Notes under the pieces: model-generated
Database searches by the model: none
What the model was told of the DNA's origin: nothing
The model's input: only the letters and a program-made list of their open reading frames with translations
Program-made: the position numbers and the translations under genes
DNA from: Provencibacterium sp.
GTDB lineage: Bacteria; Bacillota; Clostridia; Oscillospirales; Ruminococcaceae
DNA length: 64,000 bases
Direction: 5' to 3'
Assembly (NCBI GenBank): GCA_022793895.1
Contig: JAAWDS010000010.1
Span: 62,001-126,000, forward strand
Shown here: piece by piece, positions 4,288-44,511 of the stretch
Position numbering within the stretch: the first letter of the stretch is position 1
Layout of the letters: each line of letters begins with the position of its first letter

Positions 4288-4305
4288 TTGACAAAGAATT
4301 AACAA
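4288..4305 (+). promoter_or_regulatory. Rex-like operator at the adhE transcription start
   Basis: TTGACAA-AGAA-TTAACAA fits the Rex consensus TTGTTAA-N4-TTAACAA at 12 of 14 defined positions. It begins one base after the -10 box, so a bound repressor would block initiation. Rex (NADH/NAD+ sensor) control of adhE is established in other Clostridia; binding here is inferred. Confidence 0.65.
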
Positions 4306-4476
4306 TCTTTGCGGATGAAACGTTTTCTCCTGGGGAAAGCTAAGAGAAAGGCCCATCCGCCGGATCGATACCGTCCGTGCGCTTGGAGAAGCGCAAGCCC
4401 GCTTTTTTACCCGGAGGGCCGCCGGCCCGCCGGACGGAAACCGAAATATGCAGCAGAAAGAAAGGAAGGAACCGCC

Positions 4477-31867: not shown

Positions 31868-31960
31868 TGGCGGAGAAGGAGGGATTCGAACCCTCGAGGA
31901 GTTTTTGGCCCCTACACGATTTCCAGTCGTGCGCCCTCGACCAAGCTAGGCGACTTCTCC
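31868..31960 (-). tRNA. tRNA-Ser, anticodon GGA
   Basis: Minus strand begins GGAGAAGTCGCC and ends CTTCTCC-G-CCA with CCA encoded. Anticodon stem CACGA/TCGTG encloses CTGGAAA, so the anticodon is GGA. Long variable arm typical of class II serine tRNAs, and GGTTCGAATCC T-loop. Reads UCC/UCU codons. Confidence 0.96.
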
Positions 31961-32041: not shown

Positions 32042-32767
32042 TCAAATTTTATCCTTTTCCGCCGCAAAATGTTCGAGCAGGCGGCTCGCGCTACAGGCGG
32101 CCAATTCTAATGTGCGTACCGGTTCGGCAATGTCCCAAAGATAGTGCGCATCAGAATTGGTGATCACCTGGCAGCCGGCAATTTTTCCCCGGTTTTCTTC
32201 CTCCGCTAAAAAACGCTCCGGCTCTTTGACCTCCACGACGGTAAAGCCGCACTCCGGCGGCAGAAAGCCCAGGTTGGAGAGCGCGCTGTAAGCGCTCTTG
32301 TCCACATGGGCGGGAAAAGCAAAGCCGCCGTATTTGCGCGCAAGAAGGGGAGCCTCGGCGATCGGAATGGTCGAAGCATTGATGAGCAGCCGGGGCTCCG
32401 ATCGGAGTACGGCGTCGTTCTCATCCATCACCCACTGTTCCCCGAAGATTTCCGGCCGGTTCTCAATGGCAGGAACGCGGCTGTATACCTCTTCATCAAA
32501 CGCCATGGCCGCCTCCAATTCGGGGAACAGACAGACCACGTGGATTTCTTCCGCCGTGCACAGCTCCATCCCAGCGATCGCCAAAATACCGCTGCGGCGG
32601 GCAACCTCTAAAAAAGCCGGACAGTTTTTACAACTGTTGTGATCGGTTAAAGCAACAACCTGCAACCCGTTGAGGATCGCCATGTTGATCATGTTGTTCG
32701 GCGTCATGTCCGCGTCGCCGCAAGGGGAGAGGCAGGAGTGCATGTGCAGGTCATAGCTAAGTTTCAT
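32042..32767 (-). CDS. PHP-domain metal-dependent phosphoesterase
   Basis: 241 aa, almost entirely one PHP domain. The metal-binding motifs are in order: DLHMHS (residues 6-11), TDHN (about 41), GMELCTAEEIHV (about 66-77), FPAHVDK (about 152) and NSDAHYLWD (about 203). Relatives hydrolyse 3',5'-nucleoside bisphosphates or oligonucleotides (RNase AM/TrpH type). It is the last gene of a five-gene minus-strand unit and overlaps the DRTGG gene by 11 nt. PHP genes occur next to HsfB-like Fe-S proteins in many Clostridia, which implies a conserved but unexplained partnership. Confidence 0.88.
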   Translation of the reverse strand: MKLSYDLHMHSCLSPCGDADMTPNNMINMAILNGLQVVALTDHNSCKNCPAFLEVARRSGILAIAGMELCTAEEIHVVCLFPELEAAMAFDEEVYSRVPAIENRPEIFGEQWVMDENDAVLRSEPRLLINASTIPIAEAPLLARKYGGFAFPAHVDKSAYSALSNLGFLPPECGFTVVEVKEPERFLAEEENRGKIAGCQVITNSDAHYLWDIAEPVRTLELAACSASRLLEHFAAEKDKI

Positions 32768-33104
32768 CGCCGGTTACCTTCCCGATCGCGACCGCCGTAT
32801 CATAAACCGGGCGTTCGCTGAAGAGCAGCACAACCTCTTGCTCGCGCGCCTTCTGGCGGGTCGCTTCGTCAATGGCCATCCCCTCGGCAATTACAACGCA
32901 GCTCAAATCGCAGAGCACCGCCACCGCTATCGCATTGAGGTTCGCCATGACCGTTACCCACACGCCGCCCGCCGGCGCGCGGCCCATCACAATCGAAAGC
33001 AGGTCGCAGCAGTAGACCCCGCCGCTGATTTCCCTGGAAAGGCCGTCGCCGCCTTCTATTACCGTTAAACCAAGCTCCCGCGCCATCTCCTCCACCGTTT
33101 TCAT
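32757..33104 (-). CDS. DRTGG-domain protein (second of the operon)
   Basis: 115 aa, small alpha/beta protein. The segment GGVYCCDLLSIVMGRAPAGGVWVTVMANLNAIAVA matches the DRTGG-like fold seen as stand-alone proteins in hydrogenase-associated loci. The family is named after a motif often bordering CBS domains; its ligand here is unknown. Its start shares one base with the HsfB-like stop and its end overlaps the PHP gene, so it is translationally coupled on both sides. Distant paralogue of the first gene of the operon. Confidence 0.75.
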   Translation of the reverse strand: MKTVEEMARELGLTVIEGGDGLSREISGGVYCCDLLSIVMGRAPAGGVWVTVMANLNAIAVAVLCDLSCVVIAEGMAIDEATRQKAREQEVVLLFSERPVYDTAVAIGKVTGDET

Positions 33105-34402
33105 TACTTCACGCCCTCCTTCTCGTTCGCCGCGTCCCGCCGGGCGGCGTCCTCCGCCAACGTCGCCAGGTTTTCTTTGATGCGGAAGATGCAGTCGTCC
33201 GCTGCCGCGAAGCCGCGCACGATATCCTCCGCCAACGCCCGGCAGGTGGGCGCGCCGCAGGAACCGCAGTCTAAGCCCGGCAGGCTGTCCTCCAGCTCCT
33301 GCATGCGCCGCATCTTCTCCATGGCGGCGGAAAGGTTGGAATCCAGCTCCATGACCGGCTCATAATCGATAACGCTGTCGTATTTGACCGCCCGCGGAAC
33401 CTCGTCCTCAATGTGGTTGCAGCTAACCGGACGGTATTTGCGGATGCGCTTGAGCTTCGCTTTGGCTACATAGGGGTTTTCGACGTTGAGAACGCCGCCG
33501 ACGCACCCGGCGCTGCATGCGTTGAGCTCGACAAAGTCCAGATCGGTAAACTTATCGTCCTCCAGATCCTCCAGCACCTTGATGACGTTTTCAATCCCGT
33601 CCGCCGCAAGATACCGGTCGTTGAGCAGCGCGGCCGCTTCGCCGCCTGAGGATCCCCAGCCCATCCCCATCCGGCCGGCGGAAGACTGCTCCGCCGTGAC
33701 CGAGACCTCTTTCATCAGGCGGATGAGCTTCGGGTATACGTCCCGAATGGCCAGAACGCCATCCACCGCCGACTGCTTGGAGCCGAGCGGGCGTTTGACC
33801 GCCGTCACCTTGGCCGGGCAGGGAGAGATAAAGAACACCCCAATCTCTTCGGGTGTGCGTCCCGTCCGCTCCACCGCCTCTTTTTTGGCCATGCGCGCCG
33901 CGACCTCGATGGGCGCGCGCAGCGGCAGAATGTTCGGGATAAGTTCGGGAAAGCGCACCCGGATGAGCCGCAGCACTGCCGGACAGGCCGAGGAGATCAC
34001 CGGCCGCTGCAACATCCCGCTGCTCATCAGGCGGCGGGTGGAATCGGAAACGATCTCGGCGGCGCGCGCCACCTCGAACACCTCGTTGAAGCCGAGCATA
34101 TGCAGCGCTTCCAACAGAATATCGACGTCATCCAGATTGTTGAACTGCCCGTAAAGCGCGGGGGCGGGCAGCGCGATTCTATAAGGAAAGCTCTCCATGC
34201 TCTCCAGCGGATCGAAAATCGCCTGTTTCGCGTGATGCGGGCAAATGCGGATACATTCCCCACAGTCGATGCAGCGCTCTTTAATAATCTTTGCCTTCCC
34301 ATCCCGCACCCGGATCGCCTCGGTCGGGCAGCGCTTGACACAGTGGGTGCAGCCCTTGCAGGCATCCCGATCCAACGTTACCGAGTGGAAATATTCCGCC
34401 AT
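33104..34402 (-). CDS. HsfB-like iron-sulfur protein related to [FeFe]-hydrogenase large subunit
   Basis: 432 aa. N-terminal double 4Fe-4S ferredoxin domain (CKGCTHCVKRCP, CIDCGECIRICP; residues 15-55). The middle is a hydrogenase large-subunit fold with degenerate H-cluster loops: SSACPAV for L1, SPCPAKV for L2 and NACSAGCVGG for L3. The four cysteines are kept but the surrounding residues are not those of catalytic hydrogenases. A C-terminal Fe-S domain (PGLDCGSCGAPTCRALAEDI, about 378-397) follows, as in HsfB. Related proteins are thought to sense redox state or H2 rather than make it. RBS GGAAAGGAAGGA. Operon with the ATPase, two DRTGG proteins and a PHP phosphoesterase. Confidence 0.85.
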   Translation of the reverse strand: MAEYFHSVTLDRDACKGCTHCVKRCPTEAIRVRDGKAKIIKERCIDCGECIRICPHHAKQAIFDPLESMESFPYRIALPAPALYGQFNNLDDVDILLEALHMLGFNEVFEVARAAEIVSDSTRRLMSSGMLQRPVISSACPAVLRLIRVRFPELIPNILPLRAPIEVAARMAKKEAVERTGRTPEEIGVFFISPCPAKVTAVKRPLGSKQSAVDGVLAIRDVYPKLIRLMKEVSVTAEQSSAGRMGMGWGSSGGEAAALLNDRYLAADGIENVIKVLEDLEDDKFTDLDFVELNACSAGCVGGVLNVENPYVAKAKLKRIRKYRPVSCNHIEDEVPRAVKYDSVIDYEPVMELDSNLSAAMEKMRRMQELEDSLPGLDCGSCGAPTCRALAEDIVRGFAAADDCIFRIKENLATLAEDAARRDAANEKEGVK

Positions 34403-34514
34403 GGTCCTGATCCTTCCTTTCCCAGCCGCCCCGCCGGCCCGGCAGGGCCGGATTCCTGTCTAAAGGGAGAGGGGCGTAAAAATCCGCTCTGCGCGGCAGG
34501 GAGCGCCTTTGGCT

Positions 34515-34955
34515 TTACGCGGGGTTGCGTACCGTCATGCTCACGGTCGTGCCGACGCCCGGCGTGCTTTCCAAGCGCATCTCATCGGTATATTTCTTCA
34601 TGTTGGGCAGGCCCATCCCTGCGCCGAAGCCCAGGTTGCGCACCTCTTCGGGCGCGGTGGAATAGCCGGCCTGCATGGCCAGATTGATATCCTTAATTCC
34701 CGGTCCGCGGTCGGCCAGCACCATTTCTACCCGGTCGGGATGGATCTCAACGGTGATTTCTCCGCCCTGGGCATGGATCACCATGTTGATTTCGCCCTCA
34801 TACATCGCAATGGCGACCCGCCGGACAACGTCCGGATGGATCCCCAGCTTTTTCAGCGTTTTTTTAACGGCGCTCGACGCCTCGCCCGCCCGCGTAAAAT
34901 CGTCGGGAGGCACGGTATAGCGCAGCTTCACCGGCTCAGCCACTAGACATTGCAC
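34515..34955 (-). CDS. Anti-sigma-factor-like GHKL ATPase (RsbW/SpoIIAB-like)
   Basis: 146 aa single HATPase_c domain with N-box YEGEINMVIHA, G1 box LADRGPGIKD and G2 box GFGAGMGLPNMKKY. Such small kinases phosphorylate anti-sigma antagonists or act as switch proteins; no sigma factor is nearby. Its start overlaps the first DRTGG gene by 13 nt. A related GHKL ATPase lies in the hydrogenase operon at 39.8 kb. It probably transmits the state sensed by the HsfB-like protein. Partner unknown. Confidence 0.85.
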   Translation of the reverse strand: MQCLVAEPVKLRYTVPPDDFTRAGEASSAVKKTLKKLGIHPDVVRRVAIAMYEGEINMVIHAQGGEITVEIHPDRVEMVLADRGPGIKDINLAMQAGYSTAPEEVRNLGFGAGMGLPNMKKYTDEMRLESTPGVGTTVSMTVRNPA

Positions 34956-35293
34956 CCGCCTTTCAGCCCGTTTTCATAGAGCAGCCCGCAGGCGGTAAAC
35001 ATGCGGAATTCGGTGCTCATCATGACGATCGAGCGCTCTTCGGCCAGCGCAATCATCTGTGCGTCCGGCTGCTTGCCGCGCACAAAGACGATGCACACCA
35101 TGTCCATCATCTCGGCGGTGCGGATGACCTGGGAATTGACCAGCCCGGTCAGAAGGACCGATTGATCCTTGACATAGGCCAGAACGTCGCTCATCATGTC
35201 GCTCCCGCAGGCGGTATGTACCTCGCGGTCAAGGAATTCCTCCCCACAGTAGATTTTCGCTTTTAATATGTTGTGGATATCCCGGACGTTCAT
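34943..35293 (-). CDS. DRTGG-domain protein (first of the operon)
   Basis: 116 aa from ATG 35293 behind GGGGAGG; the track's TTG at 35311 lies before it. Begins MNVRDIHNILKAKIYCGEEFLDREV and has SDVLAYVKDQSVLLTGLVNSQVIRTAEMMDM, the pattern of DRTGG proteins. First gene after a good promoter, followed by a 13-nt overlap with the ATPase. Likely a regulatory ligand-binding subunit; the ligand is not known. Confidence 0.8.
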   Translation of the reverse strand: MNVRDIHNILKAKIYCGEEFLDREVHTACGSDMMSDVLAYVKDQSVLLTGLVNSQVIRTAEMMDMVCIVFVRGKQPDAQMIALAEERSIVMMSTEFRMFTACGLLYENGLKGGCNV

Positions 35294-35348
35294 GCTTCGA
35301 AGCCTCCCCAACCTGTTTTGTTAAAATCAAACTTGATTATCTGGGTGT

Positions 35349-35377
35349 ATTATAACATTTTTAGTGGGTACGCTCAA
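35349..35377 (-). promoter_or_regulatory. Promoter of the DRTGG/HsfB/PHP operon
   Basis: Minus strand TTGAGC (35372-35377), 17-nt spacer, perfect TATAAT (35349-35354). Confidence 0.82.
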
Positions 35378-35460: not shown

Positions 35461-36348
35461 CTATGAAAATAAGCTGAGCTGGGCCGCATATCCCTGCTGA
35501 TAGGCGCGGATGATCTCCGGCATTTGGTAGAGCAGCCCCAGTCGGCTGCACGCGGCGGTAAAGGACCTCCAGAGCCTGTCCGCCTGCGGCACGGCGCAGT
35601 AGTACCGCCCTCCATACCGGCTCTCGTAACGAGCCGCCAGCCCCTTGCCTGGGAAATATTCCTCCAGCTTTTGGTAGAACCATTCCCGCTGTCCGGCGCG
35701 CATCGTCATGCCGAGGGCCGGATAGACGAAGCGGGCCCCGCAGGCGGCGGCCCGCCGCAGCAGTTCGAGAACATCCGCCTCGTTGTCCTCCAAAAAGGGG
35801 AGCACCGGCATAAGCAAAACGCCGCAGAAGACGCCCGCCTTCGCCAGCTTTTCCAGCGCCATAAAGCGTTCGGAGGGCGGCGGGGCGCCCGGCTCGATTT
35901 TGGCGGCCAGCGCATCGCTGGTGCAGGTAATCGTGAGCTTTACCAGCACCGGCGCACGTTCGCGGATCGACTGCAAAATATCGGTATCCCGCGTCACCAG
36001 CGTCCCTTTGGTGGCAATGGCCGCGCCGAAGCCGTAGGCGTCCAGCAGTTCGAGCGCATGCCGGGTAAGCTGTTCCTTCGCTTCGAACGGGTTATAAGGG
36101 TCGCTCATCGATCCCGTTGCCACCACGCCGGTTTTCACCTTCCGGCGCAGATCGTCCCGGATAATCCGCAGCGCGTCCGCCTTAGCGCGTACCCGGCCGA
36201 AATCCTCGATGCGGTAGCAGTCGCTGCGGCTGTCGCAGTAAATGCACCCATGGCAGCAGCCGCGGTAGATATTCATCGTATAATCCGAACCGAACCATTC
36301 GCTGGTTTGGTTGCGGGTGACAATGGTTTTAGCTGGGATAAGCTCCAT
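35461..36348 (-). CDS. SPL-family radical SAM protein
   Basis: 295 aa with the radical SAM cluster CxxxCxxC in RGCCHGCIYC (about residues 30-38). The context is that of the spore photoproduct lyase-like family: TGVVATGSMSDPYNPFEAKEQLTR and VLVKLTITCTSDALAAKIEPGAPPPSERFMALEKL. The family includes DNA photolesion lyases, but most short members (about 290 aa) have no known substrate. The SPL-specific hydrogen-donor cysteine cannot be placed with certainty. RBS GGGGGG before the ATG. Stands between the redox operon and a tRNA-Ser gene, apparently monocistronic. Confidence 0.85.
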   Translation of the reverse strand: MELIPAKTIVTRNQTSEWFGSDYTMNIYRGCCHGCIYCDSRSDCYRIEDFGRVRAKADALRIIRDDLRRKVKTGVVATGSMSDPYNPFEAKEQLTRHALELLDAYGFGAAIATKGTLVTRDTDILQSIRERAPVLVKLTITCTSDALAAKIEPGAPPPSERFMALEKLAKAGVFCGVLLMPVLPFLEDNEADVLELLRRAAACGARFVYPALGMTMRAGQREWFYQKLEEYFPGKGLAARYESRYGGRYYCAVPQADRLWRSFTAACSRLGLLYQMPEIIRAYQQGYAAQLSLFS

Positions 36349-36413
36349 TCTGACACCCCCCTAAGGAAAATCGCGGTTTCCTCCCCCAAGCCGCACAGGC
36401 GGCAGATTTCGGG

Positions 36414-36450
36414 ATAGAAAAATGGCGATCGATGGTTTCCATCGATCGCC
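36414..36450 (-). terminator. Terminator of tRNA-Ser(CGA)
   Basis: GGCGATCGATGG / CCATCGATCGCC, perfect 12-bp stem with 3-nt loop, followed on the minus strand by ATTTTTC. Confidence 0.88.
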
Positions 36451-36456
36451 GGTTTT

Positions 36457-36547
36457 TGGCGGAGCGGGTGGGATTCGAACCCACGGGACCCGTAAAGGCC
36501 CAACTGATTTCGAGTCAGTCCCGTTATGACCACTTCGATACCGCTCC
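36457..36547 (-). tRNA. tRNA-Ser, anticodon CGA
   Basis: Minus strand GGAGCGGTATCGAAGTGG ... CCGCTCC-G-CCA, CCA encoded. Anticodon stem ACTGA/TCAGT with loop CTCGAAA gives CGA, reading UCG. Long variable arm and GGTTCGAATCC T-loop. Confidence 0.96.
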
Positions 36548-36592
36548 CTATAAATCCTCTCCGCCCGGTAAGTCCAGGCAAGATTCTTTAGT

Positions 36593-36621
36593 ATTATAGC
36601 AGGTTCCGCTGCGGTTTGCAA
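36593..36621 (-). promoter_or_regulatory. Promoter of tRNA-Ser(CGA)
   Basis: Minus strand TTGCAA (36616-36621), 17-nt spacer, perfect TATAAT (36593-36598). Confidence 0.85.
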
Positions 36622-36901
36622 GAGCCTACACCTCTTTTTTATCATTCACAGTTCGGAAAGAAGGGGGGGCTCTTTCGAGGCTTTGCGCGCGGAGTCCTAT
36701 TTCAGCTGAAAAAAGGAAGATAGGAACGTCCGCCAAGATGCGGAAAGGAACCGAAAGCTCCCCAAAGCCTCCGATTCCTTTCGCATCTTCGCAGACGGCC
36801 CCTGCCGCTGCAAACCGGACCGTTACTTTATAGCAGCCCTTCTAAAAAATGGACTTCGGCTCTGCTTAAAAGCCCTGCTTAAAAGCCCTGCCGGCCGTTC
36901 T

Positions 36902-37741
36902 CTATTCCAGATTGAGCTTTTTCCCCAGCAGCCAGTTGGCGAGAGCGAAGCAGGCGGCTCCCATCAGCGCGCCCCAGAGAAGGACCATCCAGATCCCGGC
37001 GTGCATAACGGTGAGGATATGCTGATCCCCCCACCTGGCGGGGAGGGAAATCATATCGGTCAGCTTATCGAATACCCATACAGCGGAAAAGGTAATGATC
37101 TGGAAAGCCGTATTGAGCACGATAAAGGCCCCAAAGGCGCCCAACAGCTTATGCGCGCTCCAGAGCTGGCCGACGGCAATAGCCGCATAAACCAGCAGAA
37201 TGAAGTAGAAGAGGTAGACGAGCATTAACAGGCACACCTCAAAGGAAAGCAGCACGCCATGCAGCGCCGATTGGGGAGTCAGGTTCCGGAAGGACATGGG
37301 AAGGCCCGCGAAAATATCAATGATATCCCCAAGGCTTGCCATCATCAGCAGGCAGGCGAGCAGGGTGACGAGCCCGCTCACCACCAGCCACATGCAGGAG
37401 ACGGCGGCCTTGCTGGTAATCAGCTGCCAGGGCCGCACGGGGAGAGTAAACATCAAATACCCCTCGTCCCCCAAAAGGTTCTTATAAAAGCGCTGGATCA
37501 TCACAATCGCGGCCAGCATAAAGATGGCGCAGATTAAGAAGATGAAGAGCGCCATGCTGATGACGCGGGTAATCTCGATGGGCAGGCCCTTGCCGTTTTG
37601 GCGCAGCGTGCGCATCATGTTCTCGGCCCTGTTGCTGTAAAAGAGCTTGTTGAGCAGCGAAAGCACGATCAGCGCGCCGAAAAAGGGGAGAAAGATGCGC
37701 CCGGTCGCGCGCAATTCATACTTCATTAATTTTCTCAGCAT
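36902..37741 (-). CDS. ABC exporter membrane subunit (ABC-2 type)
   Basis: 279 aa from ATG 37741 (GGGAGG upstream). The track's longer frame reads through the upstream ATPase gene out of frame and is wrong. About six hydrophobic segments; residues 10-40 GRIFLPFFGALIVLSLLNKLF and the PVRPWQLITSK loop are typical of ABC-2 permeases paired with YtrB-type ATPases. The gene overlaps the ATPase stop by 7 nt. Substrate unknown; related GntR-linked exporters respond to wall-active peptides. Last gene of the operon. Confidence 0.82.
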   Translation of the reverse strand: MLRKLMKYELRATGRIFLPFFGALIVLSLLNKLFYSNRAENMMRTLRQNGKGLPIEITRVISMALFIFLICAIFMLAAIVMIQRFYKNLLGDEGYLMFTLPVRPWQLITSKAAVSCMWLVVSGLVTLLACLLMMASLGDIIDIFAGLPMSFRNLTPQSALHGVLLSFEVCLLMLVYLFYFILLVYAAIAVGQLWSAHKLLGAFGAFIVLNTAFQIITFSAVWVFDKLTDMISLPARWGDQHILTVMHAGIWMVLLWGALMGAACFALANWLLGKKLNLE

Positions 37742-38433
37742 TTGAAAACCTCCCTGAAAAGCGCATCGACGCTCATCCCCCGTTCCTCCCGGATACCATC
37801 GACCGAGGAGGAGAGCGCAATCCGTCCATGTTCGATAAAAATCACATCGTCGAGCACCCGTTCCACATCGGCGATCAGGTGGGTAGAGATGATCACCGCC
37901 GCGTTCTCCGAATAGTTGCCGATAATGGTCGAGAGAATATAATCCCTCGTCGCAGGATCCACGCCGCCAATCGGCTCGTCGAGCAGATAGAGCTCCGCGT
38001 TCCGGCTCATGACCAAAATGAGCTGCACCTTCTCCTTGGTGCCCTTCGACATCGTTTTTAACCGGTCGGACGGATTGATATTCAACCGGTTGAGCATTTC
38101 CAACGCCTTCATGCGGTCGAACCCGCGGTAAAAATCTGAAAACAGGTCGATGATGTCGTTCACCCGCATCCAATCCCCAAGATAAGGGCGATCCGGCAGA
38201 TAGCTGACCATCTCCTTGGTTTCCACGCCGATGGGCTTCCCGGCGATCCGGATCTCTCCGAGCGTGGGGGAGAGCAGGCCGCTGGCAATCTTAATGAGGG
38301 TGGTCTTCCCGCTCCCGTTCGGACCGAGCAGCCCGATGATCCGCCCGCGCTGCACCGTAAGATCCACCGATGAAAGCGCTTCTTTCGATCCATACCGCTT
38401 GGTAAGCACCTTGCATTCCAATATAGGTTCCAT
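37735..38433 (-). CDS. ABC transporter ATP-binding protein (YtrB/EcsA-like)
   Basis: 232 aa from ATG 38433 behind GGAAGGGGA; the track's start at 38601 would overlap the GntR gene. Walker A GPNGSGKTT (about 38-46), Q-loop replaced by SYLPDRPYLGD, signature degenerate as MSKGTKEKV instead of LSGGQ, Walker B LYLLDEP and switch STHLIADVE. A degenerate signature of this sort is common in the YtrB subclass. Encodes the motor of the ABC-2 exporter below, under control of the GntR repressor above. Confidence 0.9.
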   Translation of the reverse strand: MEPILECKVLTKRYGSKEALSSVDLTVQRGRIIGLLGPNGSGKTTLIKIASGLLSPTLGEIRIAGKPIGVETKEMVSYLPDRPYLGDWMRVNDIIDLFSDFYRGFDRMKALEMLNRLNINPSDRLKTMSKGTKEKVQLILVMSRNAELYLLDEPIGGVDPATRDYILSTIIGNYSENAAVIISTHLIADVERVLDDVIFIEHGRIALSSSVDGIREERGMSVDALFREVFKC

Positions 38434-38500
38434 CTGTCCCCTTCCTTTCTTAACCAACCCTTGCCGCCCCTCAAAAAAAACCGGGCGGACGAAAATGCCT

Positions 38501-38890
38501 CTATGCGCTCTCTTTTTCCGGCTTTTTCGGTTCTGCGTCCGCGGTTTGGAGCAGCCGGAGCGTTTCCTCGCGGCTGATGCCGAGCTGTCCCATCTTCTCA
38601 AAGAAGAGCGCCACCTGCTCGCGCGCTAGCTTTTCCCGAATGCTTCTAATCATCTCATGATCCTCCGTGATAAATCTTCCGGCCGTCCGCTGGGTATGCA
38701 CCAATCCATCCCGCTCCAACTCGGCCAGAGCCTTCTGCATGGTGTTCGGATTTACCGACGCCTCCGCCGCCAGGTCGCGCACGGCGGGCAGCTTACTGCC
38801 TGCCGGATACTGCCCGGACACGATCCGCATTTGGATCTGCTCAATCAGTTGTATATAGATCGGGCGATCGCCTTTGAACTCCCATGTCAT
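38501..38890 (-). CDS. GntR-family repressor, YtrA subfamily
   Basis: 129 aa: N-terminal winged helix (residues 1-75; PIYIQLIEQIQMRIVSGQYPAGSKLPAVRDLAAEASVNPNTMQKALAELERDGLV) and only about 50 residues after it, the short C-terminal dimerisation tail that defines the YtrA group. No large ligand domain, so regulation may depend on the cognate transporter or a small effector. First gene of the GntR-ATPase-permease operon, with a perfect palindrome over its own promoter, indicating autorepression. RBS GGGAGGCAAGGAG. Confidence 0.93.
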   Translation of the reverse strand: MTWEFKGDRPIYIQLIEQIQMRIVSGQYPAGSKLPAVRDLAAEASVNPNTMQKALAELERDGLVHTQRTAGRFITEDHEMIRSIREKLAREQVALFFEKMGQLGISREETLRLLQTADAEPKKPEKESA

Positions 38891-38961: not shown

Positions 38962-39213
38962 GAGGGAAAATCAAAATGAAGAAAACATTCTGGAAATACA
39001 TACAGCTAAAACGCAAAGCACCCTGCGAATATTTCTCAAGGTCATTCCCAAGGGAAGAATCTCTTCCCAATCTTTTTAATAATATAGAATATACTTCCAA
39101 GGAATCCGGGAAAGAATTCCCCCTAATCGCCCCACATTGTAGAAAATTTAACAATATCTCCCCCTTTTGGGGAGAATTTACGAAAAAAAACAGGCGATTT
39201 CTCTTTCTGACCA

Positions 39214-39243: not shown

Positions 39244-39299
39244 GAATAACAATGAGGCAGGTTGCTCGTTAATTTTTTGACATGAGCAGCCTGTTATTC
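39244..39299 (+). promoter_or_regulatory. Leader hairpin with Rex-like operator before the hydrogenase operon
   Basis: GAATAACA...CAGGTTGCTC (39244-39267) folds back on GAGCAGCCTGTTATTC (39284-39299) with one bulge, ending four bases before the RBS AAGGAGG. Its loop region holds TCGTTAA-TTTT-TTGACAT (39266-39283), matching the Rex consensus at 11 of 14 positions. Confidence 0.55.
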
Positions 39300-39321: not shown

Positions 39322-39822
39322 ATGGCAAATACCATCAGCTCTCTGAAGTTCTCCGGAACAAAAGAGCAAGAAGCGCAGCTCATGGCCGTGATTGACGAGC
39401 TGCGTTCCCAGAAGGGCGCGCTCATGCCGATCATGCAGAAGGCGCAGGAGATCTACGGCTATCTGCCCATTGAGGTGCAGCAGATGATTGCCGACGGGCT
39501 CGGCATCCCGCTTGAAGAGGTATACGGCGTAGCCACCTTCTATGCGCAGTTTGCGCTCAACCCGAAGGGACGCTACAAAATTTCGGTTTGCCTGGGAACC
39601 GCCTGCTACGTAAAGGGATCGGGCGAGGTCTATGAGCGCCTGATGGAAACGCTCGGCATCAAGGGCGGCGAATGCACGCCGGACGGGAAGTTCTCGCTGG
39701 AGGCCTGCCGCTGCGTCGGCGCATGCGGCCTGGCGCCGGTCATGATGATCAACGATGAGGTTTACGGGCGGCTGAAGCCGGAGGATATCGACGACGTTCT
39801 CGCCAAATATAAAAACCGGTAA
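39322..39822 (+). CDS. hydC: NuoE-like 2Fe-2S subunit of the bifurcating hydrogenase
   Basis: 166 aa thioredoxin-like [2Fe-2S] protein of the NuoE family. Cluster cysteines are in SVCLGTACYVKG (about 93-98) and CRCVGACGLAPV (about 134-138). N-terminal helical part contains GALMPIMQKAQEIYGYLP, as in all NuoE/HydC proteins. In HydABC enzymes it passes electrons between the NADH site on HydB and the rest of the complex. Excellent RBS AAGGAGG. First gene of a five-gene operon; gap to the next gene is 5 nt. Confidence 0.95.
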   Translation: MANTISSLKFSGTKEQEAQLMAVIDELRSQKGALMPIMQKAQEIYGYLPIEVQQMIADGLGIPLEEVYGVATFYAQFALNPKGRYKISVCLGTACYVKGSGEVYERLMETLGIKGGECTPDGKFSLEACRCVGACGLAPVMMINDEVYGRLKPEDIDDVLAKYKNR

Positions 39823-39827
39823 AGGCC

Positions 39828-40382
39828 ATGATGCAGGAGCTTTCGCTGAATATCCTGGATGTGGCGCAAAATTCGGTAAAAGCGCGCGCAACGCTGATTG
39901 CGATTTCGGTGGAGGAGGATGCGGCGGCGGACTTGCTGCGCATTACGATTGCGGACAACGGCTGCGGGATGACGCCGCAGGTGCTTTCCCGGGTGACGGA
40001 CCCCTTTTATACCACCCGCACCACCCGCAAGGTGGGCTTAGGCGTGCCGCTGCTCAAGATGGGCTGCGAGATGACGGACGGCCGTTTTTCCATTGAATCC
40101 GAGCCGGGAAAGGGGACAACCGTTCTCGCCGCGCTGGGACTCCGGCACATTGACCGATCGCCGCTGGGGGACATTGGCTCCACCGTCGTTTCGCTGATCC
40201 AGTGCAATCCGGACATCGATTTTGTCTACACCCACCGGACGGAAAAAGGCGAGTTTTCCGCCGATACGCGCGAATTTCGCGCCGTGCTGGAGGGGATCCC
40301 CCTTTCTTCCCCTGAGGTCGTGGCGTTTATCCGCGCATATATCGGCGAGCATTTGAACGAAATTGAAGGCGGAAGGGTATAA
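39828..40382 (+). CDS. GHKL-type ATP-binding protein of the hydrogenase operon
   Basis: 184 aa. HATPase_c domain (about 1-110) with N-box LDVAQNSVKARA, G1 DNGCGM and G2 KVGLGVPLL; no H-box or dimerisation domain, and a C-terminal extension of about 70 residues with IDRSPLGDIGSTVVSLIQCNPDIDFVY. Such orphan ATPases lie between nuoE and the ferredoxin-like gene in many clostridial hydrogenase operons. The role is unproven; maturation, phosphorylation-based control or sensing are all possible. Similar in kind to the ATPase at 34.5 kb. Confidence 0.85.
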   Translation: MMQELSLNILDVAQNSVKARATLIAISVEEDAAADLLRITIADNGCGMTPQVLSRVTDPFYTTRTTRKVGLGVPLLKMGCEMTDGRFSIESEPGKGTTVLAALGLRHIDRSPLGDIGSTVVSLIQCNPDIDFVYTHRTEKGEFSADTREFRAVLEGIPLSSPEVVAFIRAYIGEHLNEIEGGRV

Positions 40383-40425
40383 GCCCTAGGGAGCCCTTCC
40401 CCGCATAGAAAGGAATCGGTTACTC

Positions 40426-40797
40426 ATGAAAAGTTTAGCGGAGTTACAGGCCCTGCGCGATAAAATGAAGAGCAGCATCGGTATCCGGGACGACGATCAG
40501 GCTTCTATCCGCGTGGTGGTAGGCATGGCCACCTGCGGCATTGCCGCAGGCGCGCGCCCGGTGCTCGCCGCGTTCACCGAGGAGGTTGCCAAGAGGCAGC
40601 TCAACAACGTCGCCGTCGGACAGACGGGCTGCATCGGCATCTGCCAATACGAGCCGGTGGTGGAGGTCTTTATGCCCGGCCAGGAGAAGGTCACTTATGT
40701 AAAAATGACCGCCGAGAAGGCGGCGCGCGTGGTCAGCGACCACCTGGTCAACGGCAACGTCGTGACCGAATACACCATCGGCGCGAACGCGAAGTAA
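40426..40797 (+). CDS. Thioredoxin-like 2Fe-2S ferredoxin of the hydrogenase operon
   Basis: 123 aa. The fold and cysteines of the thioredoxin-like [2Fe-2S] ferredoxins: MATCGIAAGARPVLAAF (one Cys about 37) and TGCIGICQYEPVVEV (two Cys about 69-73). The usual fourth position falls outside a clear Cys, so only three cysteines are obvious, which is odd for a cluster protein. It corresponds to the small ferredoxin commonly encoded just before hydB. Twelve nt before hydB. Confidence 0.85.
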   Translation: MKSLAELQALRDKMKSSIGIRDDDQASIRVVVGMATCGIAAGARPVLAAFTEEVAKRQLNNVAVGQTGCIGICQYEPVVEVFMPGQEKVTYVKMTAEKAARVVSDHLVNGNVVTEYTIGANAK

Positions 40798-40809
40798 GGA
40801 GGAAACGCA

Positions 40810-42597
40810 ATGTATCGTTCACATGTGCTGGTCTGCGGCGGCACCGGCTGTACCTCTTCGGGCAGCGCGCAGATCATTGATACACTGGAAAAGGAGCTCA
40901 AGCGCAACGGCCTGGAAAATGAAATCAAGGTCATTAAAACCGGCTGCTTCGGCCTGTGCGCGCTGGGCCCCATCATGGTGGTCTATCCGGAGGGCGCCTT
41001 CTATTCGATGGTCCGCCCGGAGGATATCCCCGAAATCGTTTCGGAGCACCTGCTCAAAGGCCGCATCGTCACCCGGCTGCTCTATCAGGAGACGGTGGAA
41101 GCCGATACCATCAAGAGCCTGAACCACACCGATTTCTACCGCAAGCAGATGCGCGTTGCGCTCAAGAACTGCGGCGTTATCGATCCGGAGAATATCAACG
41201 AGTACATAGCCTACGACGGTTATCAGGCGCTCGGCAAGGTCCTCACCGAGATGGCCCCCGCCGAGGTCATTGAAGAGATTAAGAAGAGCGGGCTGCGCGG
41301 CCGCGGCGGCGCGGGCTTCCCGACCGGCCTCAAGTGGAGCTTTGCCGCTAAATATGAGGACGATCAAAAATATGTTTGCTGCAACGCCGACGAGGGCGAC
41401 CCCGGCGCGTTCATGGACCGCTCCATTCTGGAAGGCGATCCGAACGTGGTCATTGAAGCAATGGCCATTGCAGGCTACGCCATTGGCGCCAGCCAAGGCT
41501 ACGTCTACATCCGCGCCGAATACCCCATTGCCGTTAAGCGCCTGACCATCGCCATCAACGAGGCGCGCGAGATGGGCTTCTTGGGCAAGGATATTTTCGG
41601 CACCGGCTTTGACTTCGACTTGGATATCCGCCTGGGCGCAGGCGCGTTCGTCTGCGGCGAGGAAACCGCGCTGATGACCTCGATCGAAGGCCACCGCGGC
41701 GAGCCGCGTCCCCGCCCGCCGTTCCCGGCCGAGAAGGGCCTCTTCCAGAAGCCCTCGGTCCTCAACAATGTCGAGACCTATGCGAATATCCCCCAGATCA
41801 TCCTCAAGGGCGCGGACTGGTTCAACCAGATCGGCACCGAGAAGAGCAAGGGAACCAAGGTCTTTGCTCTCGGCGGCAAGATCAACAACACCGGCCTGGT
41901 GGAAGTCCCGATGGGCACCACCCTGCGCACCATCGTCGAGGAGATCGGCGGCGGCATCCCCGGCGGCAAGAAGTTTAAAGCCGCGCAGACCGGCGGCCCC
42001 TCCGGCGGCTGCATCCCGGCCGAGCATCTCGACGTTCCGATCGATTATGATAACCTCCTGGCCATTGGCTCGATGATGGGCTCCGGCGGCCTGATCGTTA
42101 TGGACGAGGACACCTGCATGGTGGATATCGCCAAGTTCTTCTTAGAGTTCACGGTGGACGAGAGCTGCGGCAAGTGCACCCCCTGCCGCATCGGCACCAA
42201 GCGGATGTATGAAATCCTCGACAAGATCTCCAAGGGCAAGGCCCACGTGGAGGATCTCGACCGGCTCGATAAGCTCGCCCAGTATATTAAGGATAACGCG
42301 CTGTGCGGCCTCGGCCAGACGGCCCCGAACCCGGTGCTTTCGACCATCCGCTACTTCCGCGACGAGTATTTGGCTCACATCGTGGATAAGCGCTGCCCGG
42401 CCGGCGTTTGCAAAGAGCTGATGAACTACTACATCGACGAGCAGAAATGTAAGGGCTGTACCCTCTGCGCCCGCAACTGCCCGGTCGGCGCAATCAGCGG
42501 CAACATCAAGGAGCCGCATATCATCGACCGCAGCAAGTGCATCAAGTGCGGCGCCTGCATGGAGAAGTGCAAGTTCGGCGCAATCGAGAAGCATTAA
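40810..42597 (+). CDS. hydB: NuoF-like NADH-binding subunit of the bifurcating hydrogenase
   Basis: 595 aa. N-terminal thioredoxin-like 2Fe-2S domain (residues 1-110; CGGTGC, TGCFGLCALGP). NuoF core with FMN/NADH loops GLRGRGGAGFPTGLKW (about 160), CNADEGDPGAFMDR, and GAGAFVCGEETALM. A 4Fe-4S motif ESCGKCTPCRIGT (about 454) and a C-terminal double ferredoxin CKGCTLCARNCP / CIKCGACMEKCK (about 545-590) follow. This is the HydB architecture of electron-bifurcating hydrogenases, which couple NADH and reduced ferredoxin to H2. Strong codon bias implies abundance. Followed by 165 nt and hydA. Confidence 0.96.
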   Translation: MYRSHVLVCGGTGCTSSGSAQIIDTLEKELKRNGLENEIKVIKTGCFGLCALGPIMVVYPEGAFYSMVRPEDIPEIVSEHLLKGRIVTRLLYQETVEADTIKSLNHTDFYRKQMRVALKNCGVIDPENINEYIAYDGYQALGKVLTEMAPAEVIEEIKKSGLRGRGGAGFPTGLKWSFAAKYEDDQKYVCCNADEGDPGAFMDRSILEGDPNVVIEAMAIAGYAIGASQGYVYIRAEYPIAVKRLTIAINEAREMGFLGKDIFGTGFDFDLDIRLGAGAFVCGEETALMTSIEGHRGEPRPRPPFPAEKGLFQKPSVLNNVETYANIPQIILKGADWFNQIGTEKSKGTKVFALGGKINNTGLVEVPMGTTLRTIVEEIGGGIPGGKKFKAAQTGGPSGGCIPAEHLDVPIDYDNLLAIGSMMGSGGLIVMDEDTCMVDIAKFFLEFTVDESCGKCTPCRIGTKRMYEILDKISKGKAHVEDLDRLDKLAQYIKDNALCGLGQTAPNPVLSTIRYFRDEYLAHIVDKRCPAGVCKELMNYYIDEQKCKGCTLCARNCPVGAISGNIKEPHIIDRSKCIKCGACMEKCKFGAIEKH

Positions 42598-42762
42598 GCC
42601 CCTTCCCCGCCGCCCGCCGGGCTGCGCGGTTTTTCCCAAACAAGCTCCGGCAGGCAACCCGTTTCGCGCCTGTCCTCGCCGAAGGCGGCAAGGGCATGGC
42701 TGCGCCGGACAGGGCGCCCAACGCGCGCCTTGCACAAATCCCCAGAAAGGAATGGTCGTTTA

Positions 42763-44511
42763 ATGGAAATGGTCAATATCAAGATAAACGGGCTTCCCCT
42801 GAGCGTACCGAAGGGAAGCACCATCCTCGAAGCGGCCCGTCAGGCCGGTATCGAGATCCCTACATTGTGTTTCCTGCGTGATATCAATGAGATCGGCGCT
42901 TGCCGCATCTGCGTGGTCGAGGTAAAGGGCGCCCGCTCGCTGGTCGCCTCCTGCGTCTACCCGGTCAACGAGGGCATGGAGGTCTTTACCAACTCCGCCC
43001 GCGTTCAGGAGTCCCGTAAAACCACGCTGGAGCTGATTCTCTCGGACCACGAGAAAAACTGCCTGTTCTGCGTGCGCAGCGGGAACTGCGAGCTGCAAAA
43101 GCTCGCGCAGGAATATGGGCTCAGCGACCCGACGGCCTGGGCGGGCGAGACCAACCGGTATGAGATTGACGACTCGGCTACCCACATGTGGCGCAACAAC
43201 AACAAGTGCATCCTCTGCCGGCGGTGCGCGGCCGTCTGCGAGAAGAACCAGGCGGTCGGCGTTATCGGCGCGAACGATCGCGGCTTTAAGACCCACATCG
43301 GCTGTGCGTTCGAGCTCGACCTGGCGCAGACGCCCTGCGTTAGCTGCGGACAGTGCATCACCGTCTGCCCGGTCGGCGCTATCGGCGAAAAGGACGACGG
43401 GCCGAAGGTCACCGCCGCCCTGCGCGATCCGGAGAAATATGTGGTGGTGCAGGCTGCGCCTTCCATCCGCGCCACGCTCGGCGAGGAGTTCGGCCTGCCG
43501 GTCGGCTCCAATGTGGAGGGCAAGATGGCGGCCGCTCTGCGCCGCCTCGGCTTCGATAAGGTGTTCGATACCGACTTCGGCGCCGATCTCACCATCATGG
43601 AGGAGGCCAACGAGCTGGTAGAACGGGTCCAGAACGGCGGCAAGCTGCCGATGATTACCTCCTGCTCGCCCGGCTGGATCAACTTCTGTGAAATGTATTA
43701 CCCCGATATGCTCGATAACCTTTCGAGCTGCAAGAGCCCGCAGCAGATGTTCGGCGCAGTGATCAAGACCTGGTATGCAAAGAAGGAGAACCTCGATCCG
43801 AAGAATATCGTCAGCGTGTCAGTCATGCCCTGCACGGCGAAGAAGTATGAAATCGGCCGTGAGGATCAGAGCGCGGCGGGCGTGCCGGATCTCGACATCA
43901 CCATCACCACCCGCGAGCTGGCGCGGCTCATCCGCGCGGCGGGCATTGACTTCGCCAACCTGCCGGATGAGGAGTTCGATACCCCGCTCGGCATCGCTTC
44001 GGGCGCCGGGCACATCTTCGGCGCGACCGGCGGCGTGATGGAGGCGGCGCTGCGCACCGCTTACGAAACGATCACCGGTGAGAAGGCCGGTTCGCTCGAA
44101 TGGAAAGAGGTCCGCGGGACCGAGGGCGTCAAGGAAGCCAGCTACAAGGTGGGTGCGCTCACCGTGAACGTAGCGGTTGCCAGCGGCCTCTCCAACGCCC
44201 GCAAGGTGCTCGATGCGGTCAAGAGCGGCGAGAAGGACTATACCTTCATCGAGATCATGGCCTGCCCAGGCGGTTGCGTCAACGGCGGCGGCCAGCCCAT
44301 TCAGCCCGCTTCGGTGCGCAACTTCACCGATCTCAAGGCGTTGCGCGCCAAGGCCCTCTACGAAGAGGATGCCGGTATGGATCTGCGCAAGAGCCATGAG
44401 AACCCCGCCATTCAGGAGCTCTATCGGGACTTCCTCGAAAAGCCGGGCAGCCATGTAGCCCACGAGGTCCTGCACACCTCTTATAAGGCGAGAAAGCGCT
44501 ATACCGTTTAA
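42763..44511 (+). CDS. hydA: [FeFe]-hydrogenase catalytic subunit
   Basis: 582 aa from ATG 42763 (AGAAAGGA upstream; the track's 42730 precedes it). N-terminal 2Fe-2S domain with CFLRDINEIGACRICVVE, a His/Cys cluster segment HEKNCLFCVRSGNCELQ, two 4Fe-4S motifs CILCRRCAAVCEK and CVSCGQCITVCP. The H-cluster loops are complete: L1 TSCSPGW (about 299; the second Cys of TSCCP is Ser, as in some bifurcating enzymes), L2 MPCTAKKYE (about 355) and L3 EIMACPGGCVNGGGQP (about 500). It reduces protons with electrons from NADH and ferredoxin through HydBC. Maturases HydEFG are not in this window. Confidence 0.96.
   Translation: MEMVNIKINGLPLSVPKGSTILEAARQAGIEIPTLCFLRDINEIGACRICVVEVKGARSLVASCVYPVNEGMEVFTNSARVQESRKTTLELILSDHEKNCLFCVRSGNCELQKLAQEYGLSDPTAWAGETNRYEIDDSATHMWRNNNKCILCRRCAAVCEKNQAVGVIGANDRGFKTHIGCAFELDLAQTPCVSCGQCITVCPVGAIGEKDDGPKVTAALRDPEKYVVVQAAPSIRATLGEEFGLPVGSNVEGKMAAALRRLGFDKVFDTDFGADLTIMEEANELVERVQNGGKLPMITSCSPGWINFCEMYYPDMLDNLSSCKSPQQMFGAVIKTWYAKKENLDPKNIVSVSVMPCTAKKYEIGREDQSAAGVPDLDITITTRELARLIRAAGIDFANLPDEEFDTPLGIASGAGHIFGATGGVMEAALRTAYETITGEKAGSLEWKEVRGTEGVKEASYKVGALTVNVAVASGLSNARKVLDAVKSGEKDYTFIEIMACPGGCVNGGGQPIQPASVRNFTDLKALRAKALYEEDAGMDLRKSHENPAIQELYRDFLEKPGSHVAHEVLHTSYKARKRYTV

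Follow-up and report, generated by a model that had tools for sequence, protein, structure and literature searches.

A 64,000-nucleotide stretch of the Provencibacterium sp. contig JAAWDS010000010.1 (positions 62,001 to 126,000 of the forward strand; hereafter the window, whose own numbering is used throughout) carries a five-gene minus-strand operon, D1-AT1-HydS-D2-PHP, which encodes a putative sensory [FeFe]-hydrogenase (HydS), two DRTGG proteins (D1 and D2), a GHKL ATPase (AT1) and a PHP-family phosphoesterase. It is an ordinary member of a conserved, functionally unexplained system, and its interest lies in what comparison across relatives reveals, not in the window operon itself. We consider it probable that this system is a modular H2/redox-sensing cassette that tunes ferredoxin/NADH electron-transfer complexes; in plain terms, the operon's likely job is to inform the cell of its hydrogen level and to regulate the enzyme nearby that makes hydrogen. 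The evidence, all of it read from sequence, consists of the class of HydS, the intact catalytic residues, the conserved gene order, co-occurrence, three pairwise fusions, replacement of the sensor, and the HydABC, Rnf and rex genes found as neighbours.

Gene order and conservation of the HydS operon

An earlier reading of the DNA by eye (the original prediction) had described five genes in this order with overlaps at three junctions, and all five open reading frames (ORFs) were confirmed on the minus strand. D1 (34943-35311; Pfam PF07085, E 1.2e-8, 35.2 bits) probably starts at the ATG at 35293, which is preceded by GGGGAGG. It is followed by AT1, a SpoIIAB-like GHKL ATPase or putative Ser kinase (34515-34955; PF13581 (HATPase_c_2), E 4.7e-12), HydS (33104-34402; two Fer4 matches, Fe_hyd_lg_C and FeS (PF04060) in Pfam), the second DRTGG protein D2 (32757-33104) and the metal-dependent phosphoesterase PHP (32042-32767; PF02811). 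D1 and AT1 overlap by 13 nucleotides if the first GTG of AT1 is used and by 1 if the start of AT1 is the GTG within TAGTG; the HydS/D2 and D2/PHP overlaps are 1 and 11 nucleotides, respectively. The gap between AT1 and HydS is 112 nucleotides, and no terminator-like site was found in it. A putative sigma-A type promoter with an extended -10 element (TTGAGC-17-TATAAT; 35349-35377, minus strand; 10 of 12 consensus bases) lies upstream of D1 and is also present in a locus of the same genus (L002); its -35 box is where the element as first delimited ended (35377).

The operon was compared with 80 loci from GTDB genomes (gathered by HydS similarity), 28 from close relatives and 55 from a sample spanning the phylum. 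The order D1-AT1-HydS-D2-PHP on one strand is kept in 136 of the 138 loci that hold all five genes; in the other two D1 and AT1 overlap, and these look like domain-boundary artefacts. This constancy, together with the near-invariance of the key residues (those of AT1, PHP and the H-cluster are 97-100% conserved in relatives), argues that the operon is not a chance arrangement, and the view of it as a conserved redox/signalling unit stands. The suggested check of family co-occurrence was run in 200 genomes of the phylum, with AT2, an ATPase of the neighbouring hydrogenase operon (see below), taken as the fifth family in place of D2. HydS was found in 68 of these genomes, D1 in 70, AT1 in 73, PHP in 69 and AT2 in 73; all five families occur in 58 and any of them in 78, and the pairwise Jaccard indices are 0.83-0.92, highest for PHP and AT2 (0.92). 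Roughly one in three of the sampled phylum genomes thus has the cassette.

HydS as a group D [FeFe]-hydrogenase

The window HydS consists of two [4Fe-4S] ferredoxin motifs, an H-cluster domain and a C-terminal Cx2Cx4Cx16C cluster, and a Pfam scan found no PAS domain in it. The features given for group D (M2e) in the accessible text of the TamHydS papers are retained H-cluster cysteines, loss of Cys299, replacement of Met353 by Ser or Thr, the C-terminal Cx2Cx4Cx16C motif and a set of conserved charged residues (PMC8163306, PMC13104023). Residue conservation was scored over 159 HydS sequences. All four H-cluster ligands are present in the window protein, C140 and C195 being found in 159/159 and C296 and C300 in 158/159. 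The position of the proton-relay Cys299 is Ala139 in the window and A (134), S (21), T (3) or H (1) across the set, never C, and that of Met353 is Ser193 (S in 87 and T in 70 of 159). The C-terminal cluster cysteines C379, C382, C387 and C404 are kept at 98%. Because every published feature that could be checked is present, HydS can be assigned firmly by its sequence to group D (M2e) as a putative sensory [FeFe]-hydrogenase. In a quick tree (from which TamHydS was absent) 31 group D proteins form a clade of their own (support 99), apart from groups A and C and standing beside group C.

The protein most like it in the literature is TamHydS of Thermoanaerobacter mathranii, also group D, which in the published portions available shares its domain layout, H-cluster ligands, Cys299 loss, Met353 to Ser change and Cx2Cx4Cx16C motif (PMC8163306, PMC13104023). 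Residues D378, C379, E392, D393, D403 and C404 have the same numbers in both proteins, and R31, R33, K36 and K59 of the window correspond to R30, R32, K35 and K58 of TamHydS, shifted by one. The two differ at the M497 position (Asn in the window, Leu in TamHydS) and at position 384 (Ala and Ser, respectively), to judge from the same portions. The TamHydS locus, as far as it is described there, also has a nearby GHKL ATPase and linkage to a bifurcating HydABC; the text seen of the two papers mentions the ATPase and an AraC-type neighbour, but not two DRTGG proteins or a PHP protein.

The label HsfB-like, given to the central protein at the outset, has to be dropped, as published HfsB carries a PAS domain (PMC11837493), whereas HydS has none and fits group D. 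A group B assignment was likewise ruled out (TIGR04105, 133.9 bits against a cut-off of 450). The loops SSACP, SPCPAK and NACSAGC, in which the cysteines had been described as retained, are indeed present with their cysteines, but loops that looked altered are normal for group D. TamHydS, which has the same kind of loop changes, is reported in the accessible text to take up the standard cofactor and turn over H2 (PMC8163306), so that no altered metal centre need be assumed here and the proposed modified metal site becomes unnecessary. The host genome carries the HydF maturase.

Group C HydS/HfsB proteins (Ruminococcus albus, Thermotoga maritima, Thermoanaerobacterium) resemble group D in the H-cluster domain, the C-terminal iron-sulphur cluster and a proposed role in H2 sensing. 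They carry a PAS domain and may carry HisKA-HATPase domains or adjoin SpoIIE-type phosphatases, whereas in group D there is no PAS and the partner is DRTGG. A PAS-bearing group C sensory hydrogenase is encoded in the genome that contains the window as well (L113, G000:C47). At a related locus (L029) a SpoIIE-type phosphatase adjoins the group C protein, and another (L030) looks similar.

Fusions, sensor replacement and the partner proteins

Fused genes suggest which of the cassette proteins are partners. D1 and AT1 form a single ORF in genomes G236, G175, G209 and G138, HydS and D2 do so in G171 and G093, and PHP and AT2 are fused in G156, G191 and G246 and also in G071, where a 425-amino-acid ORF matches both; AT2 is fused to the ferredoxin-type subunit Fd of the hydrogenase operon in G105. 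The PHP-AT2 fusion joins the HydS operon to the ATPase of the hydrogenase operon, so AT2 belongs with PHP even though it lies inside the hydrogenase operon in the window. One locus of G171 encodes both a group C protein with the layout Fer4-Fe_hyd-FeS-PAS-HisKA-HATPase and a group D protein with the layout Fer4-Fe_hyd-FeS-DRTGG; in the HydS-D2 fusions DRTGG takes the position that PAS has in group C sensors. Fusions and this PAS/DRTGG swap together name D2 as the candidate partner of HydS, D1 as that of AT1, and AT2 as that of PHP.

Four cassettes have no HydS (L199, L200, L201 and L207), and in these AT1 is extended at its N-terminus by a pair of CBS domains (PF00571, E from about 1e-30 to 1e-32); L182 holds both CBS-AT1 and HydS. 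Of the HydS-less loci, L207 adjoins HydABC, and in L200 the genes D1, CBS-AT1 and Fd directly precede an Rnf operon. These arrangements support the view that HydS is one of two apparently interchangeable inputs of the signalling cassette.

The Pfam DRTGG match of D2 is weak (20.8 bits; cut-off 25.2), but D2 aligns with D1 in hhalign at E 2e-27 and by that profile comparison is a true DRTGG protein homologous to D1. The AlphaFold model of D1 (predicted local distance difference test score (pLDDT) 86.6) matches the folds of the DRTGG protein AF1212, the CBS-DRTGG region of the Clostridium perfringens pyrophosphatase and the N-domain of HPr kinase. Residues D38, S41 and D42 of D1 and D34, S37 and N57 of D2 are invariant; a DxxS motif is therefore common to both proteins (D38/S41 and D34/S37), and it is lacking from AF1212 in a weak sequence alignment. 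This motif might bind a ligand or accept a phosphate. The CBS-pyrophosphatase regulatory region and the HPr kinase N-domain share the DRTGG fold and its combination with CBS or a kinase, but the cassette proteins differ from them in occurring alone or joined to a GHKL ATPase or to HydS, and in having DxxS.

The PHP protein retains the metal ligands H8, H10, D42, H43, E68, H76, H154, D206 and H208 at 97-100%, and its AlphaFold model (pLDDT 96.6) is nearest to BAD_1165, EndoQ and RNase AM, the tyrosine phosphatase Cps4B being much further away. These two sets of matches bear on one of the two chief rivals of the sensing cassette, in which the DRTGG proteins bind a nucleotide messenger, for example Ap4A, that PHP degrades, with HydS as the gate. 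The D1 match to the C. perfringens pyrophosphatase is pertinent here, since an Ap4A complex of that enzyme has been published (ref. 41 of PMC7226116, in the part of that paper seen) and DRTGG matters for ApnA binding (PMC7226116); the stand-in of CBS domains for HydS, the invariant D and S residues common to D1 and D2, and the proximity of PHP to EndoQ, RNase AM and an AMP-bound PHP protein point the same way. No messenger synthase was seen in the cassette, however, a ligand has not been shown here for free-standing DRTGG, and the two ATPases would be left unexplained, so we regard a nucleotide messenger as unlikely.

The other chief rival, partner-switching control of transcription, turns on AT1. 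Its best match in the PDB is the anti-sigma F factor SpoIIAB, its nearest solved relatives are SpoIIAB and RsbW, and it keeps the ATP-site residues E53 and N57 (each 157/157) and H61 and the motifs DxGPGI and GxGAGxGL. Like these anti-sigma kinases it thus has the GHKL fold, N-box and G-boxes, and it might be a genuine anti-sigma kinase from which a sigma factor is released only on the HydS signal, in which case the output would be gene expression only; in Thermoanaerobacterium saccharolyticum, adhE expression went up on deletion of hfsA or of hfsB, the latter being a sensor of group C type (PMC5707799). AT1 nevertheless falls well below the family cut-offs (59.9 of 135 bits for the SpoIIAB model TIGR01925, and 28.8 of 145 bits for RsbW), and no STAS anti-anti-sigma factor, SpoIIE phosphatase or sigma factor was noticed as a cassette member in the neighbourhoods inspected, for which no dedicated search with STAS or sigma models was run. 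We therefore consider partner switching rather improbable.

The ATPases of the two operons had been called similar, which does not hold in any special sense: AT1 is SpoIIAB-like and AT2 histidine-kinase-like, and hhalign joined them over only 67 columns. AT1, PHP and D1 gave no PADLOC matches that would link them to a defence system.

Linkage to HydABC, Rnf and Rex, and the proposed mechanism

The neighbouring hydrogenase operon HydC-AT2-Fd-HydB-HydA (39322-44511, plus strand) encodes HydC, the NuoE-like subunit of a bifurcating hydrogenase (39322-39822; PF01257), AT2, a GHKL ATPase without a phosphoacceptor domain (39828-40382; PF02518), the thioredoxin-like [2Fe-2S] ferredoxin-type subunit Fd (40426-40797; profile matches), HydB, the NuoF-like NADH/FMN subunit (40810-42597; PF01512, PF10589), and HydA, a catalytic group A6 [FeFe]-hydrogenase (42730-44511; NF040763, 907 bits against a cut-off of 765). 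The original prediction that this operon and the HydS operon are linked is supported by conserved adjacency, interleaving in some genomes and the PHP-AT2 fusion, though the distance is 4 kb and not 5. The interval between the two (35461-38890) holds a gene for a radical-SAM-like protein, one tRNA-Ser gene and a cluster named by eye as ABC transporter/GntR-like, and the HydS operon plus the next gene are flanked by minus-strand tRNA-Ser genes at 31868-31960 and 36457-36547 (anticodons GGA and CGA). In many relatives the cassette and the hydrogenase operon are divergent, with a few hundred bases between them.

HydABC genes lie near 93 of the 123 HydS loci of 9 kb or more, and the operon may be divergent, downstream or split around the cassette (HydC-D1-AT1-HydS-D2-PHP-AT2). 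An Rnf operon is directly downstream of the HydS cassettes L180, L182 and L186. In L172, L173, L176, L179 and L193 the gene after PHP is AT2, and the retrieved stretch contains no HydABC. In several lineages rex, which encodes the NADH sensor Rex, adjoins the cassette: it lies upstream of D1 in L151, L155, L204, L205, L207 and L208 and after AT2 in L176 and L193; in the latter two a small Cys-rich protein, RseC-like by eye only, stands between AT2 and rex. At two loci (L215 and L216; genomes G065 and G192) a single D2-type DRTGG gene stands immediately before HydC-AT2-Fd-HydB-HydA, and group D HydS, D1, AT1 and PHP are absent from the fetched stretch. In L208 (G097) HydS is reduced to C-terminal fragments and D1-AT1 and PHP are truncated beside an apparently intact HydABC, as in a decaying cassette.

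Tight linkage to HydABC and Rnf would also be expected if the GHKL ATPases were chaperones and the other proteins helped to assemble HydABC/Rnf or to repair the H-cluster, with HydS as a scaffold and not a sensor; the absence of a phosphoacceptor domain from the ATPase AT2 would agree with this. Sensor-type DRTGG and CBS domains and an intact catalytic phosphoesterase would be unexpected in such a role, HydABC copies adjoin HydS-D2 without AT1, PHP or AT2 in L166, L167 and L169, and TamHydS itself actively converts H2 and has regulatory-like properties, according to the text available (PMC8163306); we judge a function in assembly or maintenance highly improbable.

Four Rex-like sites were found in the window where 0.8 were expected, and none of 100 shuffles reached as many. 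Two precede hydC (TTGTAGAAAATTTAACAA at 39137-39154, plus strand, 12 of 14 consensus bases, and a weaker one at 39266-39283, plus strand, 11 of 14), and one, TTGACAAAGAATTAACAA at 4288-4305 (plus), is directly 5' of an adhE-like gene (4309-7104) recognised by eye. Since such sites precede both, adhE and hydABC may well belong to a common Rex regulon. The rex gene itself is on the same contig, 14 kb beyond the window. Across loci the regions upstream of D1 and hydC are enriched in Rex-like sites (as measured against mononucleotide shuffles only), and no palindrome upstream of D1 was clearly common to 125 loci.

Within the sensing cassette that we favour, every step after HydS, including the direction of the signal, kinase activity of AT1 and AT2, the substrate of PHP and the target, is one that we infer. 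HydS would carry an ordinary H-cluster tuned for sensing, and binding of H2 would change its shape. In the accessible text on TamHydS, H2 induces a change in secondary structure and does not reduce the C-terminal cluster (PMC13104023 and its ref. 48), and for this reason a conformational signal is favoured; it would pass through the C-terminal iron-sulphur domain of HydS to D2. D1-AT1 could then act as a DRTGG-gated SpoIIAB-like kinase or ATPase that reads the state of HydS/D2, and in HydS-less cassettes it would probably read an adenylate signal through the fused CBS domains. PHP-AT2 would be the output pair, a metal-dependent phosphoesterase and a GHKL ATPase whose joint action sets a phosphorylation or nucleotide signal. 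As the principal target we envisage the neighbouring ferredoxin/NADH-linked complex, HydABC here and Rnf in some relatives. Most simply its activity would be changed, because the cassette does not itself encode a DNA-binding protein and transcription is probably left to Rex.

Several observations weigh against this reading. The fusions are few (four genomes for D1-AT1, two for HydS-D2 and four for PHP-AT2) and come from few families, and the co-occurrence figures ignore phylogeny. Neither HydABC nor Rnf is near 26 of the 123 HydS loci of at least 9 kb. HydS-AT1 stands apart from D1-D2-PHP-AT2 in three genomes of one family (L203, L206 and L146; G186, G242 and G216), so the pairing is not absolute. 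The PHP fold is closer to nucleic-acid/nucleotide esterases than to protein phosphatases, and the structure therefore does not favour a simple kinase/phosphatase cycle. Biochemical or genetic data on cassette proteins were not found in the searchable literature, except for TamHydS. As a separate observation, the detached HydS-AT1 pair adjoins CheW in L203 and a response regulator in L206, and its output there is perhaps different.

Parts of the picture have long been in print. Group D hydrogenases, their position upstream of HydABC and a suspected regulatory role go back to at least 2012 in the text seen (PMC3561251, PMC8163306). In the same portions, M2e genes are placed upstream of trimeric bifurcating hydrogenases in Clostridium thermocellum, Caldicellulosiruptor, Thermoanaerobacter and others, the pairing seen in the window, and the regulatory role was suspected from a kinase neighbour (PMC3561251). 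The ten-gene Halanaerobium operon Halsa_1862-1871 lists nearly the same gene set (PMC4237134, in its available part). What could be seen of these two papers (PMC3561251, PMC4237134) leaves the DRTGG genes unnamed and gives no fusion, sensor-replacement, co-occurrence or Rnf/rex evidence; literature on Cthe_0333-0339, as far as seen, holds gene lists only. A search for DRTGG with hydrogenase found nothing related. The DRTGG partners, the fusions, the CBS exchange and the Rnf link were not found in the searchable literature, outside which most subscription papers lie, and neither was a worked-out signalling output, in agreement with the original prediction.

The 2020 TamHydS paper, in its accessible text, did not settle by what route a group D sensor, having no PAS domain, would signal (PMC8163306). 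A tentative answer, which we hold to be possible and no better than that, is a plug-in cassette of three two-protein modules, with DRTGG in place of PAS, a sensor exchangeable for CBS domains and a post-translational output on HydABC or Rnf; this would be an H2-signalling route distinct from two-component systems and from [NiFe] regulatory hydrogenases. The cassette adjoins enzymes that set the balance of H2, ferredoxin and NADH in gut and biofuel bacteria, and yields of ethanol and H2 are already known to change when genes of a related group C sensor operon are deleted (PMC5707799).

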